Below, piece by piece: positions 18,447-21,848 of a stretch of DNA of 39,636 nt; position 1 is the stretch's first letter, and every line of letters begins with the position of its first letter. Source of the DNA: Ferrovibrio sp. (lineage in GTDB: Bacteria > Pseudomonadota > Alphaproteobacteria > Ferrovibrionales > Ferrovibrionaceae). A model generated the notes under the pieces. The model ran no database searches and was not told the origin of the DNA. It saw only the letters and a program-made list of their open reading frames with translations. The position numbers were made by a program, and so were the translations under genes. The stretch spans positions 20,965 to 60,600 of the forward strand of contig NZ_JANLJJ010000039.1 in the NCBI RefSeq assembly GCF_029255545.1. The letters run 5' to 3'.

Positions 18447-19928
18447 ATGGAGTTCCGCACGGCAAGTGAACTCGTTGCCGCCCTGCGCGCGCGACAGGTT
18501 TCCGCCCTTGAGCTGGCCGAACAGGCCATCGCCTGCATCGAGCGCGAGGACACCCGCCTGAATGCCATCCCGGTGCGCGATTTCGAGCGCGCTCGCCAGG
18601 CCGCGAAAGCGGCCGATGCGGCGCTGGCGAAAGGCGAGGGTGGCGCGTTGCTCGGTCTCCCGATGACGGTGAAGGAGAGCTTCAACATCGCCGGCCTGCC
18701 GACCACCTGGGGCATCCCGAACACGGCCCAGATTCCGGTGACGCAGGATGCCGTGGCGGTGGCGCGGCTGAAGGCGGCCGGCGCCGTGATGCTGGGCAAG
18801 AGCAACGTCTCGATGGTGCTGGCCGACTGGCAGGCCACCAACCCGGTCTATGGCACAACCAACAATCCCTGGGACGTGACGCGCACGTCGGGTGGCTCGT
18901 CGGGCGGCGCGGCCGCGGCTTTGGCGGCTGGTTTCGTGGCGCTGGAGCTGGGCTCCGATCTGGGCGGCTCGCTGCGCATTCCGGCGCATTTCTGCGGCGT
19001 CCATGCGCATAAGCCGACGCTGGGCCTGGTGCCGATGCGTGGTCATGCGCCGCCGGGCATTCCCGTGTTGTCGGTGGCGCCGAATCACGGCCTGCCGGTG
19101 GTGGGGCCGATGGCGCGCTCGGCCGCCGATCTCATGCTGGCGCTCGACGTGCTGGCCGGGCCCGACGAGGCCGAGGCCATCGCCTATGAGCTGCGCCTGC
19201 CGCCGCCGCGCCATGCGACGCTGAAGGATTTCCGCGTGCTGGTGATCGACGCGCATCCCGATGCGCCGACCGATGCCGCCATAGGCGCGGCGATCGCGGA
19301 CCTGGCCACGAAGCTGGAAGGCGCGGGCTGCCATGTCGGCCGCTCCAGCGCGGCCCTGCCCGATCTGTCGCTGGTCGGCAGCACGTATCTGCGCATGGTG
19401 ATGGCCTTCATGGGCGCCAACATGCCCGAGCCGGACTACGTGGCGGCGAAGGCGCGTGCCGCCGGCATCCCCGAAGCGGCCGCCGACCGTGCCAGCGTCT
19501 CGGCGCTGAGCGTGGTGGCGAGCCATCGCGCCTGGATGCAGGCGGGCAACATGCGGCTGGCGCTGATGCACCAGTGGCGCGACTTCTTCCGCGACTGGGA
19601 CATCCTGCTCTGTCCGGTTTCGCCGGTGGCCGCTTTCCCGCATGACCAGCGGGCCTGGGAAGAGCGCATCATCACCGTGAATGGCAAGCCCGCGCGTTAC
19701 GGCGACCAGTTCCAGTGGCCGGGCCTCGCCACGCTCGGCGGCCTGCCGGCCACCGCGCTGCCGGCGGGATTCTCGCAGGATGGCCTGCCGGTCGGCGTGC
19801 AGGTGATTGGCCCTTATCTGGAAGACCGCACGCCAATCCAGTTCGCCATGCTGGTGGAACAGGCCTTCGGCGGCTTCAAACCGCCGCCGCAACTGGCGCC
19901 GGCATTGCGGCAGGAAATTCCGGCTTGA
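18447..19928 (+). CDS. Amidase (amidase-signature family)
   Basis: A 493-residue hydrolase of the amidase-signature family. The Ser-cisSer-Lys triad is visible: Lys76 in LPMTVKESFNIAG, the cis-Ser at 151 in TSGGSSGGAAAALAAG, and the nucleophile Ser175 in GSDLGGSLRIPAHF. The usual GATB interaction context is absent, so this is a stand-alone amidase acting on an unknown small amide, not the tRNA amidotransferase subunit. The ATG at 18447 was chosen over a TTG at 18435 because GGAGAG lies 5 to 10 bases before it. The stop codon overlaps the -35 element of the downstream leader promoter. Confidence 0.92.
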   Translation: MEFRTASELVAALRARQVSALELAEQAIACIEREDTRLNAIPVRDFERARQAAKAADAALAKGEGGALLGLPMTVKESFNIAGLPTTWGIPNTAQIPVTQDAVAVARLKAAGAVMLGKSNVSMVLADWQATNPVYGTTNNPWDVTRTSGGSSGGAAAALAAGFVALELGSDLGGSLRIPAHFCGVHAHKPTLGLVPMRGHAPPGIPVLSVAPNHGLPVVGPMARSAADLMLALDVLAGPDEAEAIAYELRLPPPRHATLKDFRVLVIDAHPDAPTDAAIGAAIADLATKLEGAGCHVGRSSAALPDLSLVGSTYLRMVMAFMGANMPEPDYVAAKARAAGIPEAAADRASVSALSVVASHRAWMQAGNMRLALMHQWRDFFRDWDILLCPVSPVAAFPHDQRAWEERIITVNGKPARYGDQFQWPGLATLGGLPATALPAGFSQDGLPVGVQVIGPYLEDRTPIQFAMLVEQAFGGFKPPPQLAPALRQEIPA

Positions 19929-19953
19929 CGCATCCGGCCGCGACGCTTACCGT
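19925..19953 (+). promoter_or_regulatory. Putative promoter of the threonine leader / thrS-like operon
   Basis: TTGACG at 19925-19930, overlapping the amidase stop, and TACCGT at 19948-19953 are 17 bases apart. The predicted transcription start falls near A19961, only 3 bases before the leader ATG at 19964. The leader mRNA would then be almost leaderless, which explains why no ribosome-binding site is seen. Confidence 0.6.
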
Positions 19954-19960
19954 CGCGGCC
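19936..19960. promoter_or_regulatory. Perfect 10-base inverted repeat across the -10 region
   Basis: GGCCGCGACG at 19936-19945 is perfectly complementary to CGTCGCGGCC at 19951-19960 with a 5-base centre. It covers the promoter spacer, the -10 hexamer and the bases just before the predicted start. It has no T tract, so an operator is more likely than a terminator of the amidase gene. Confidence 0.5.
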
Positions 19961-19963
19961 ACC

Positions 19964-20038
19964 ATGCAGAGCATTATTCTCACCGTAGTCACCATTAAGG
20001 TTACCGCCACCGGCGGGGAGCCCAGGTGTCGCGCGTGA
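19964..20038 (+). CDS. Threonine/branched-chain-rich leader peptide (attenuator)
   Basis: A 24-codon frame encoding a peptide whose core is IILTVVTIKVTATGG. Four of residues 7-16 are Thr, all ACC codons (19982, 19991, 20003, 20009), and three Ile and three Val flank them, much like the Thr/Ile-rich leader of the enterobacterial thr operon. It starts 3 bases after the predicted transcription start and has no Shine-Dalgarno sequence. The final Thr codon runs directly into the antiterminator strand at 20010-20018. Its stop is 110 bases before the ThrRS-like gene. I infer that ribosome stalling here controls the downstream genes. The mix of Ile and Val codons leaves open that it senses more than threonine. 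Confidence 0.7.
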   Translation: MQSIILTVVTIKVTATGGEPRCRA

Positions 20039-20091
20039 GCAGATAACGCATCGCAACCACCCAGGGGCCCCGCCGGAAACGACGGGGCCCC
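20004..20091 (+). promoter_or_regulatory. Transcription attenuator: alternative antiterminator and terminator-like hairpins
   Basis: The terminator-like hairpin pairs 20064-20075 with 20080-20091 (11 of 12 pairs) around a GAAA tetraloop. Its left arm overlaps CCCCGCCGG at 20068-20076, which is a perfect 9-base complement of CCGGCGGGG at 20010-20018. Pairing can continue through CCC at 20021-20023 with GGG at 20065-20067 across a 2-base bulge. A small protector hairpin, CCGCC 20004-20008 with GGCGG 20012-20016, would block the antiterminator. The weakness is the tail: only TTT at 20097-20099 follows, not a clear T tract, so termination might need a factor. Confidence 0.6.
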
Positions 20092-20148
20092 GGTCGTTTC
20101 AGGGTCCCGTCGCTGCCCGGCCGCTCCGCAGATGAAGGAGTTTTCGCC

Positions 20149-21348
20149 GTGAATCAGAGTATGGACGCCTACGATCACCGGGTGCTGGGCACCAAGCTCG
20201 ACCTGTTCCACCAGCAGGAGGAAGGGCCGGGCATGGTGTTCTGGCACCCGCGCGGCTTCGCGCTGTATCGCGTGGTGGAGGATTATATCCGCCGCCGCAT
20301 GCGCGAGGCCGGCTTCCTGGAAATCCGCACGCCGCAGCTGCTCAGCTATTCGCTGTGGGAACAGAGCGGCCATGCCGAGAAATTCGCCAACGAAATGTAC
20401 CGGGTCAATTCCGGGAACCGGCCCTATGCGCTGAAGCCCATGAGCTGCCCCGGTCATGTGCAGGTGTTCAACAAGACGCTGCGCTCGGTGCATGACCTGC
20501 CTTTGCGCTACTGCGAATTCGGCGCCTGCCACCGCGACGAGCCCTCGGGCGCCTTGCAGGGCCTGATGCGCACGCGCAGCTTCGTGCAGGACGATGCGCA
20601 TATCTTCTGCACGGAGGCGCAGATCGAGGCCGAAGTGCAGCATTTCTGCGAATTGCTGCGCGGCATCTACAGCGATTTCGGTTTCGGCGCGCCGTTGGTG
20701 TTTTTTGCGACAAGGCCGGCGAAGCGGGCGGGCGACGATGCCACCTGGGACCGCGCCGAGGCAGCCCTGGTGGTGGCGGCGCGCAAGGCCGGGCTGGATT
20801 TCGCCATCCGCAACGGCGAGGGCGCCTTCTACGGGCCGAAGCTGGAATTCCATCTGCGCGACAGCCATGGCCGCAGCTGGCAATGCGGCACGGTGCAGCT
20901 CGATTTCGTGATGCCTGAGCGCCTGGGCGTGGAGTATGTCGGCAGCGATAACGGGCGGCAGCGACCGGTGCTGATCCATCATGCCGTGCTGGGCAGCCTG
21001 GAACGGTTCATCGGCATGCTGCTGGAGCATTACAGGGGCGCGTTGCCCTTGTGGCTGGCGCCCGAGCAACTTGTCGTGGCCAATGTGACCGATGCCCATG
21101 CCGGCTATGCCCGCAAGGCCGCCGCCACCCTGGGCCGCGAAGGCTATCGCGTTGCGGTCGACAGCCGGCCGGAGCGGTTGAGCCGCAAGATCGCCGAGGC
21201 GCATGACCAGGGCGTGCCGCTGGTGGCGGTGGCTGGCGAGCGCGAGGCGGAACGCGGCTCGCTCAGCTTACGCTGGCGCGGCGGCCGGCAGATGGAGCTG
21301 CCGATCGCCGAAGCCGCGCGGCGTCTGCGGCATGAGGCGTTCCGGTGA
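20149..21348 (+). CDS. Short threonyl-tRNA synthetase paralogue lacking TGS and editing domains
   Basis: A 399-residue class II synthetase, against about 640 for a standard ThrRS. It starts directly at the catalytic domain (DHRVLGTKLDLF, then GPGMVFWHPRGFALY). The zinc ligands Cys100 (MSCPGH), His151 (QDDAHIFCT) and His277 (VLIHHAVLGS), motif 2 (FGACHRDEPSGALQGLMRTRSF) and motif 3 (LGSLERFIGML) are all intact. A C-terminal anticodon-binding domain covers about 302-399. The N-terminal TGS and Ser-tRNA-Thr editing domains are missing, with no remnant upstream. The GTG at 20149 has AAGGAG at 20135-20140; an ATG at 20161 is too far. It probably charges tRNA-Thr without proofreading under threonine limitation. 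A full-length thrS may exist outside the window. Confidence 0.9.
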   Translation: MNQSMDAYDHRVLGTKLDLFHQQEEGPGMVFWHPRGFALYRVVEDYIRRRMREAGFLEIRTPQLLSYSLWEQSGHAEKFANEMYRVNSGNRPYALKPMSCPGHVQVFNKTLRSVHDLPLRYCEFGACHRDEPSGALQGLMRTRSFVQDDAHIFCTEAQIEAEVQHFCELLRGIYSDFGFGAPLVFFATRPAKRAGDDATWDRAEAALVVAARKAGLDFAIRNGEGAFYGPKLEFHLRDSHGRSWQCGTVQLDFVMPERLGVEYVGSDNGRQRPVLIHHAVLGSLERFIGMLLEHYRGALPLWLAPEQLVVANVTDAHAGYARKAAATLGREGYRVAVDSRPERLSRKIAEAHDQGVPLVAVAGEREAERGSLSLRWRGGRQMELPIAEAARRLRHEAFR

Positions 21349-21848
21349 GCGCCGTCACCCTGCATCTTCCCACCCTGCATCTCCTCTGTGGCAAGATCGC
21401 GGCCGGCAAGTCGACGCTGGCGGCGAATCTTGCCGCACAGGCCGGCACGGTGCTGATCGGCGAGGATGCCTGGCTGGCGCGGCTCTATCCGGATGAGATT
21501 CTCACCGTGACCGATTACAGGCGCTGCGCCGCCCGGCTGCGCGAGGCCATGGCGCCGCATGTTGAAAATCTGCTGGGCTGCGGCCTGTCGGTGGTGCTCG
21601 ATTTTCCGGCCAACACGCGGGCGAGTCGGGCCTGGATGCGCGGCATTATCGCGCGTTCGGGCACGGCCCACCTGCTGCATTTCCTGGACGTGCCGGACGA
21701 AATCTGCCGTGCACGCCTGCATCGCCGTAATGCCGCCGGCGGCCACGACTTCGCCGCCGGCGATGCCGAGTTCGATATCATCACCAGTTATTTCGAGGCG
21801 CCAACCAGAGACGAAGGTTTCAACATCCGGTGCTACACCGCAGGCTGA
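21345..21848 (+). CDS. P-loop ATPase/kinase (AAA_33-like) coupled to the ThrRS paralogue
   Basis: A 167-residue protein with Walker A GKIAAGKST at residues 16-24 and a fold like small-molecule or zeta-type kinases: DAWLARLYPDE after strand 2, VVLDFPANTRASRAWMR with the second acidic strand, and a LID-like CRARLHRRNA segment rich in Arg. The GTG start at 21345 overlaps the ThrRS stop (GTGA), so the two are translationally coupled. The substrate is not evident. Possible roles are phosphorylating an antibiotic or a metabolite linked to threonine or tRNA; this is speculation from the neighbourhood. It converges with the barrel gene ending 5 bases further on. Confidence 0.82.
   Translation: MSAVTLHLPTLHLLCGKIAAGKSTLAANLAAQAGTVLIGEDAWLARLYPDEILTVTDYRRCAARLREAMAPHVENLLGCGLSVVLDFPANTRASRAWMRGIIARSGTAHLLHFLDVPDEICRARLHRRNAAGGHDFAAGDAEFDIITSYFEAPTRDEGFNIRCYTAG

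Follow-up and report, generated by a model that had tools for sequence, protein, structure and literature searches.

We analysed a 39,636-nucleotide (nt) stretch of contig NZ_JANLJJ010000039.1 of Ferrovibrio sp. (hereafter the window), in which the gene of a short threonyl-tRNA synthetase (ThrRS) is preceded by a promoter, a near-leaderless leader peptide gene rich in threonine (Thr), competing RNA arms and a hairpin. Judged from the sequence, this backup synthetase is very probably under the control of a ribosome-mediated transcription attenuator that responds specifically to threonyl-tRNA. The upstream unit was present in all 27 short-ThrRS genes examined, and two competing helices were nested in 21 of 26 leaders, while 2.9 were expected by codon permutation. 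These results support the layout of ribosome-mediated attenuation that a preliminary description of the window had proposed, and the promoter, frame, pairing and hairpin which it described were all found in place. The elements of the unit are as follows.

19925 to 19930, + strand: -35 box TTGACG, which overlaps TGA (19926-19928), the stop codon of the upstream amidase gene
19948 to 19953, + strand: -10 box TACCGT, a poor match to the consensus
19964 to 20038, + strand: leader peptide gene of 24 codons, MQSIILTVVTIKVTATGGEPRCRA and a stop codon, beginning on the predicted transcription start or a few nt from it
19991 to 19993, + strand: Thr codon that is likely the control codon, 7 codons ahead of arm 2
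20004 to 20016, + strand: 1:2 protector hairpin CCGCC-ACC-GGCGG
20010 to 20018, + strand: antiterminator arm 2, CCGGCGGGG, the exact reverse complement of 20068-20076
20068 to 20076, + strand: arm 3, CCCCGCCGG, common to the antiterminator and the terminator
20064 to 20091, + strand: terminator hairpin 3:4 with a GAAA loop, 11 pairs and one C/A mismatch
20092 to 20100, + strand: weak T tail GGTCGTTTC, the lowest T content of the 26 loci

In the proposed mechanism, transcription would start at or beside the leader ATG, and a ribosome would load on a nearly leaderless RNA. With ample Thr-tRNA, the ribosome would pass the Thr codons and leave, hairpins 1:2 and 3:4 would form, and transcription would stop before the synthetase gene. 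With scarce Thr-tRNA, the ribosome would halt at the Thr codons and cover arm 1, 2:3 would form, and the polymerase would enter the synthetase gene. The terminator would thus be the default state, also when Thr-tRNA is ample. On transcripts reading through from the upstream amidase gene, the leader would lack a Shine-Dalgarno sequence and termination would be expected.

Conservation of the upstream unit

The short-ThrRS genes were gathered by protein similarity, not by means of the leader, from relatives, a sample of 385 genomes of the class, plasmid and chromid records, and a sample of 398 genomes of the phylum, the last of which was searched with an alignment of 21 sequences. The 27 genes examined were L001-L010 (L001 being the window's copy), L031-L038, L136, L137, L180-L183, L185, L187 and the divergent L235. 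Most counts use 26 of them, L235 having been read by eye only. L136 (Burkholderia arboris) and L137 (Caballeronia sp. SBC2) came from plasmid or chromid records of Betaproteobacteria; the record of Caballeronia sp. SBC1 also matched and lies outside the 27 genes counted. L180-L183, L185 and L187 were fetched first by a covariance model, and the protein search of the phylum sample recovered the same genes.

The class sample held at least 13 short forms among the matches listed, all with the unit, and the phylum sample nine among the matches listed, of which 9 of 9 carried it; short forms scoring under many full-length ones could be absent from both counts. The nine scored 637-742 bits, and the next match, a full-length form, 623 bits. 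Open frames of 534 and 544 amino acids (G232 and G212) were kept outside the class counts. Outside the phylum counts were G617, G520, G599, G637 and G523, open frames of 411-467 amino acids with scores resembling full-length forms; in the first four of these, the frame starts no more than 174 bases from a contig end. A scan of the genome contigs yielded 80 loci, among which full-length ThrRS dominated and no recognisable short ThrRS was found; two of these loci (L128 and L131) run off the contig end.

The covariance model, R1, was trained on 12 of 20 leaders (alignment A4; the earlier alignments A2 and A3 had misplaced some arms). The training set includes four leaders with arm 2 in another frame, and omits L005 and seven leaders with a shorter terminator loop, that of the window among them. 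R1 found all 27 short-ThrRS loci, 15 of which were outside the training set, and scored 62.7 bits at the window's site compared to 23.5 bits for the next best site in the same genome. Against 29 full-length thrS loci (L011-L030 and L141-L149), the window's genus included, R1 gave no match up to an E-value of 0.01. Moreover, 11 upstream regions of full-length thrS were read, and neither a Thr frame nor the hairpin was found in them; that of L148 was read above a start which is probably too early, and this locus is covered by the whole-locus R1 search.

Competing helices and putative terminator

In all 26 loci, a contiguous run of 6-9 base pairs (bp), counting G-U, can form between arm 2 and arm 3. 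In the window the complement is exact over nine bases, which bears out the earlier claim that an antiterminator pairing excludes the hairpin. The motif GCCCCGCCGG in arm 3 was invariant in 18 of 18 aligned sequences, and a CCCCGCC...GGGG hairpin stands upstream of all 27 short-ThrRS genes. The 1:2 protector hairpin, which the preliminary description had missed, has at least 4 bp in 24 of 26 leaders; it is of the type CCGCC/GGCGG or CCCGC/GCGGG with a loop of 3 or 4, and the same rule gives 3 bp in L137 and 2 bp in L183. The nested test passed by 21 of 26 leaders was strict, demanding a 1:2 helix of at least 5 bp whose 3' arm pairs over at least 6 bp with arm 3. GGCGG is read as Gly-Gly in 22 leaders, and as Arg-Arg or Trp-Arg in four (L009, L010, L033 and L034). 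Since the motif is kept across reading frames, it is the RNA and not the peptide that is conserved here.

Several results weigh against attenuation. Five of the 26 leaders fail the strict two-helix test. When each leader was tested separately against codon permutation, p fell below 0.05 for the energy of the 2:3 duplex in 7 of 20 leaders (0.003 in the window) and for the 1:2 hairpin in 3 of 20 (0.289 in the window); single leaders are seldom significant because they are GC-rich. Covariation was slight and mixed in the five outer terminator pairs: out of 1000 shuffles, one pair (paired in 26 of 26) was reached by 2, two by 22 and 34, and two by 122 and 944. The arms show hardly any variation, and compensatory changes are accordingly rare. 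Thus, of what the preliminary description had looked for in orthologues, a conserved frame, Thr codons, competing helices and a promoter-like pair were found, while compensatory changes were weak and mixed. R1 also gave 16 weak reverse-strand matches on the short-ThrRS hairpins (E 0.0002-0.007), which are expected since the hairpin is palindromic. A thrS gene with N-terminal domains (L174) has a Thr leader too, and therefore the element is not exclusive to short ThrRS. A simple consensus scan of 19700-20400 returned no promoter and no terminator, owing to the poor -10 box and the weak T tail. Finally, the first 10 bases past the core stem hold 3 T in the window, compared to 4-8 T in each of the 25 relatives; the missing T tract pointed out earlier is real in the window but not typical of the family. 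In L001-L008 the stem can also lengthen and shift the T run away. With few T after the stem and an extendable stem, termination in the window may be leaky or require help.

The weak tail and the scan without a terminator-like site would also suit control via Rho, or via translation of the synthetase, instead of intrinsic termination. However, the richer T runs of the 25 other members speak for intrinsic termination, and the Shine-Dalgarno sequence of the synthetase starts 44 nt beyond the last hairpin base, outside the hairpin. Control of this kind is unlikely in our judgement.

A repeated terminator cassette of the genome was rejected, as the exact hairpin pattern occurred once in 4.11 Mb. 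A backwards control pattern likewise occurred once, and the count is therefore silent on chance.

Leader peptide gene

A Thr-rich leader of 21-28 codons, whose translation is predicted from sequence, stands ahead of the short ThrRS in all 27 genes. Four of the 24 codons in the window are Thr codons (at 19982, 19991, 20003 and 20009). Summed over 26 leaders, Thr accounts for 144 of 671 codons, with 3-10 per leader. Its codons were ACC (97), ACG (34), ACT (12) and ACA (1), and this spread over four synonymous codons indicates that the amino acid is conserved, not the letters. Thr lies 7 codons ahead of the GGCGG arm in 23 of 26 leaders and 3 codons ahead in 24 of 26; the positions between hold it in 15-20 of 26.

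The preliminary description had called the leader rich in Thr, isoleucine (Ile) and valine (Val). The first part was confirmed by the codon counts, but the Ile/Val cluster was found only in the window's five-species clade, with 3 Ile and 3-4 Val per leader, and sensing of these two amino acids is unsupported. Each of the remaining 21 leaders contains 0-1 Ile and 0-3 Val, and at the positions of the cluster they mostly carry Thr, some having Ala, Trp, Lys or Pro there. In enterobacteria, both Thr and Ile are sensed by the thr leader, and a similar sensing of Ile and Val besides Thr would be in line with the composition of the five leaders and with their 90-100% identity to each other over the first 48 nt. 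On the other hand, the Thr codons at -7 and -3 are kept in the window's clade as elsewhere. As the cluster is confined to five species, the leader likely senses Thr alone, and sensing of Ile and Val is distinctly unlikely.

The first 48 leader nt (19964-20011) are near-unchanged in L001-L005, whose third codon positions are 94-100% identical there compared to 66-82% in the synthetase gene. The DNA 43-100 nt 5' of the ATG has an ungapped identity of 29-43% among the same loci. The third-position identity in the leader exceeds what the peptide alone would need and points to an extra constraint, perhaps an RNA acting in trans.

Predicted promoter and start of the leader transcript

The promoter of the window has a spacer of 17 nt, and the leader ATG (19964) lies 10 nt past the -10 box. 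All 26 short-ThrRS loci have a -35 box that agrees with TTGACA in 5 or all 6 bases (TTTACA in L032), and no more than 4.3% of 300 random sites per locus match equally well. The geometry is likewise kept in 26 of 26 loci, with spacers of 16-18 nt and 6-10 nt from the end of the -10 box to the ATG. Transcription usually begins some 6-9 nt downstream of a -10 box, and its start is therefore predicted on the leader ATG or within a few nt of it.

Between the -35 box and the ATG, spanning the -10 box, the window contains a perfect 10-bp inverted repeat (GGCCGCGACG-CTTAC-CGTCGCGGCC, 19937-19961), which is perhaps an amidase terminator, an operator or chance. If both this repeat and the hairpin at 20064-20091 were terminators of the amidase gene, the Thr frame would be a chance feature. 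The amidase gene ends at 19928 with the repeat directly after it, an amidase homologue is found upstream in L002-L005 too, and the frame alone has only 4 Thr in 24 codons. However, the amidase match in L002-L005 ends 150-610 nt before the leader, and the inverted repeat was not seen by eye in these four nearest relatives, although the hairpin is present there. Moreover, no amidase homologue was found in the 21 other loci (0.7-2.8 kb upstream searched), where promoter, frame and hairpin persist. The amidase reading was rejected on this ground as very improbable.

T-boxes regulate ThrRS genes in Firmicutes, but a T-box riboswitch or a protein-binding leader is hardly credible here, since the four weak Rfam matches in 19900-20160 include neither a T-box nor a threonine leader. 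In the window, all Rfam families stayed below their gathering scores (the strongest of the weak matches had 19.3 bits, the cut-off being 96), and a known Rfam element was rejected for the window's copy.

The short threonyl-tRNA synthetase and its neighbourhood

The synthetase gene lies behind the terminator hairpin.

20135 to 20140, + strand: AAGGAG, a Shine-Dalgarno-like sequence 8 nt ahead of the GTG of the synthetase gene
20149 to 21348, + strand: short ThrRS of 399 amino acids with a GTG start, catalytic core and anticodon-binding domain only

The protein gave domain hits to the class II core (tRNA-synt_2b) and HGTP_anticodon and no others. Its match to TIGR00418 (455 bits, cut-off 383.65) covers the model only from position 170 of 565 onwards, so that the TGS and editing domains of the N-terminus are missing. 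The host genome also encodes a full-length ThrRS (G000:C98, a 663-codon open frame). A tree built from 72 proteins placed all 26 short forms on one side of a branch with a support of 100/100, in a bootstrap that was not fully settled; the inner forks of the short clade were moderately supported (82/89 and 83/95 among them). The window's genus holds two lineages of short ThrRS (L001-L005 and L006-L008), and the betaproteobacterial copies lie among the others. The place of the window's protein next to named relatives on this tree points to Alphaproteobacteria as the class of the window. The gene had been described as a truncated ThrRS without an editing domain. The absence of the domain is correct, but the gene is complete, belongs to an old clade of editing-less paralogues and is not a truncated thrS.

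The zinc-ligand positions C100, H151 and H277, which we take to correspond to C334, H385 and H511 of Escherichia coli, were conserved in 26 of 26 short forms (E. coli numbers were taken from the offset of the 1qf6 match). The residues beside two of them differ between the forms. At residue 99 (E. coli 333, beside Cys334), all 26 short forms have Ser and 45 of 46 full forms have Asn; at residue 278 (E. coli 512, beside His511), His occurs in 25 of 26 short forms and Arg in all 46 full forms. The short ThrRS is expected to be catalytically active but to lack cis editing, and to be produced upon failure of threonine or of the housekeeping enzyme.

One further gene follows the synthetase directly.

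21345 to 21848, + strand: P-loop kinase-like gene (AAA_33), which overlaps the stop codon of the synthetase gene

This gene is probably cotranscribed with the short ThrRS gene. Nine other loci were searched over 1.5 kb downstream, and a homologue was found in two, L002 and L004, both of which belong to the four near relatives. An all-against-all comparison of the frames up to 500 bases 3' of the synthetase linked near relatives only and revealed no constant downstream partner. The lack of a constant downstream gene, together with the betaproteobacterial copies inside the clade, suggests that synthetase and attenuator were transferred as a unit.

A further idea goes beyond the attenuator itself. 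The attenuator and the short ThrRS could together be an autonomous emergency module, mobile between bacteria, that fires whenever charged tRNA-Thr drops through failure of the housekeeping ThrRS, for example under an inhibitor or metal shortage. The differences at the zinc site could make the short enzyme insensitive, at the cost of mischarging Ser. We hold this idea as tentative, possible but rather doubtful.

Comparison with known systems

Attenuation before synthetase genes is already known. The leader of the enterobacterial thr operon is similar in its Thr-rich peptide and alternative helices, but it has Thr and Ile codons, controls biosynthesis and has no Rfam match in the window.

On the basis of RNA-seq, a leaderless Thr leader has been reported ahead of thrS in Streptomyces lividans TK24 (PMC8079986). 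Its thrL-thrS region resembles that of the window in the leaderless leader with Thr codons before a threonine-tRNA ligase gene, and in a single hairpin without a U-rich stretch, termination being unclear there (PMC8079986). It differs in being actinobacterial, with 2 Thr in 18 residues before a gene annotated thrS (PMC8079986), whereas the window's family has 3-10 Thr per leader, defined 1:2, 2:3 and 3:4 helices, an editing-less paralogue and proteobacterial hosts. Sinorhizobium meliloti trpL-trpE(G) is a case of alphaproteobacterial attenuation in which the transcript begins at the leader ATG, and its attenuated trpL RNA also acts in trans; unlike the window's leader, it has Trp codons and precedes a biosynthetic gene (PMC7298713). 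The T2 ThrRS of Anabaena is likewise a second, editing-defective enzyme, near-silent in standard growth and induced by stress, but it responds to zinc shortage via the Zur repressor (PMC4787780), while the signal in the window is predicted to be Thr-tRNA. A small leader coding sequence before Caulobacter trpS is mentioned in PMC4117421.

In the PMC literature, as far as its accessible parts go, no attenuator of a proteobacterial thrS or asd gene was found, and the same parts of PMC2965389, PMC4833913, PMC4117421, PMC9437257 and PMC1273637 contain no such case. Within this literature, the combination of a conserved Thr attenuator with a proteobacterial clade of editing-less ThrRS was not found, although an earlier comparative prediction is possible. 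The combination links attenuation by charged tRNA with backup synthetases that give up proofreading, two subjects usually treated apart. If the attenuator works as proposed, a failing charge of tRNA-Thr would be answered by a second, error-prone synthetase. Charged tRNA-Thr in Proteobacteria could then be followed with a defined, transferable reporter, and it could be tested clearly whether proofreading is sacrificed in emergencies alone.

Related leaders before other genes

R1 also matched the same layout before asd, where the leaders contain Thr and mostly Lys, such as MMRFATKTTTTKTTTFGGPARTCA (L157) and MPSFMFKKTTTTTKTTAGGACAELFG (L207). Aspartate-semialdehyde dehydrogenase was confirmed downstream by NCBIfam or Pfam in L157-L159, L164, L171, L178, L179 and L197. 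It was recognised by eye only in L207-L209, L212, L213 and L219-L223, of which L222 showed no ATG-started frame; L163 and L170 resemble these loci and are further candidates. The asd gene of the window's own genome has no such leader. The asd-type loci suggest a wider group of attenuators of this layout.

In L174, the Thr leader MRTHPVLRSTATTTTTATGGRWRMRA was read by eye within a longer TTG frame (L174:1501-1606) before thrS. The thrS match begins at model position 1, and the locus ends before the end of the gene. Leaders with Thr runs also precede isochorismatase-domain genes in L184, L186, L193 and L195, which belong to the same phylum but lie outside the window's class; the domain was assigned by Pfam for L184, L193 and L195. 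Small frames of the type MIKSSRTFNRNHMTRFGWAVGGVAR, with the same terminator and no run of a single amino acid, were seen in L162, L166, L188-L192, L215, L216 and L218. Several of these adjoin DUF1127-like proteins, as judged by eye and, for L190 only, by Pfam. A weaker R1 match, L225:343-451, has an Ala/Lys leader before a gene of the dihydrodipicolinate synthase family (Pfam DHDPS) and is perhaps a Lys attenuator.

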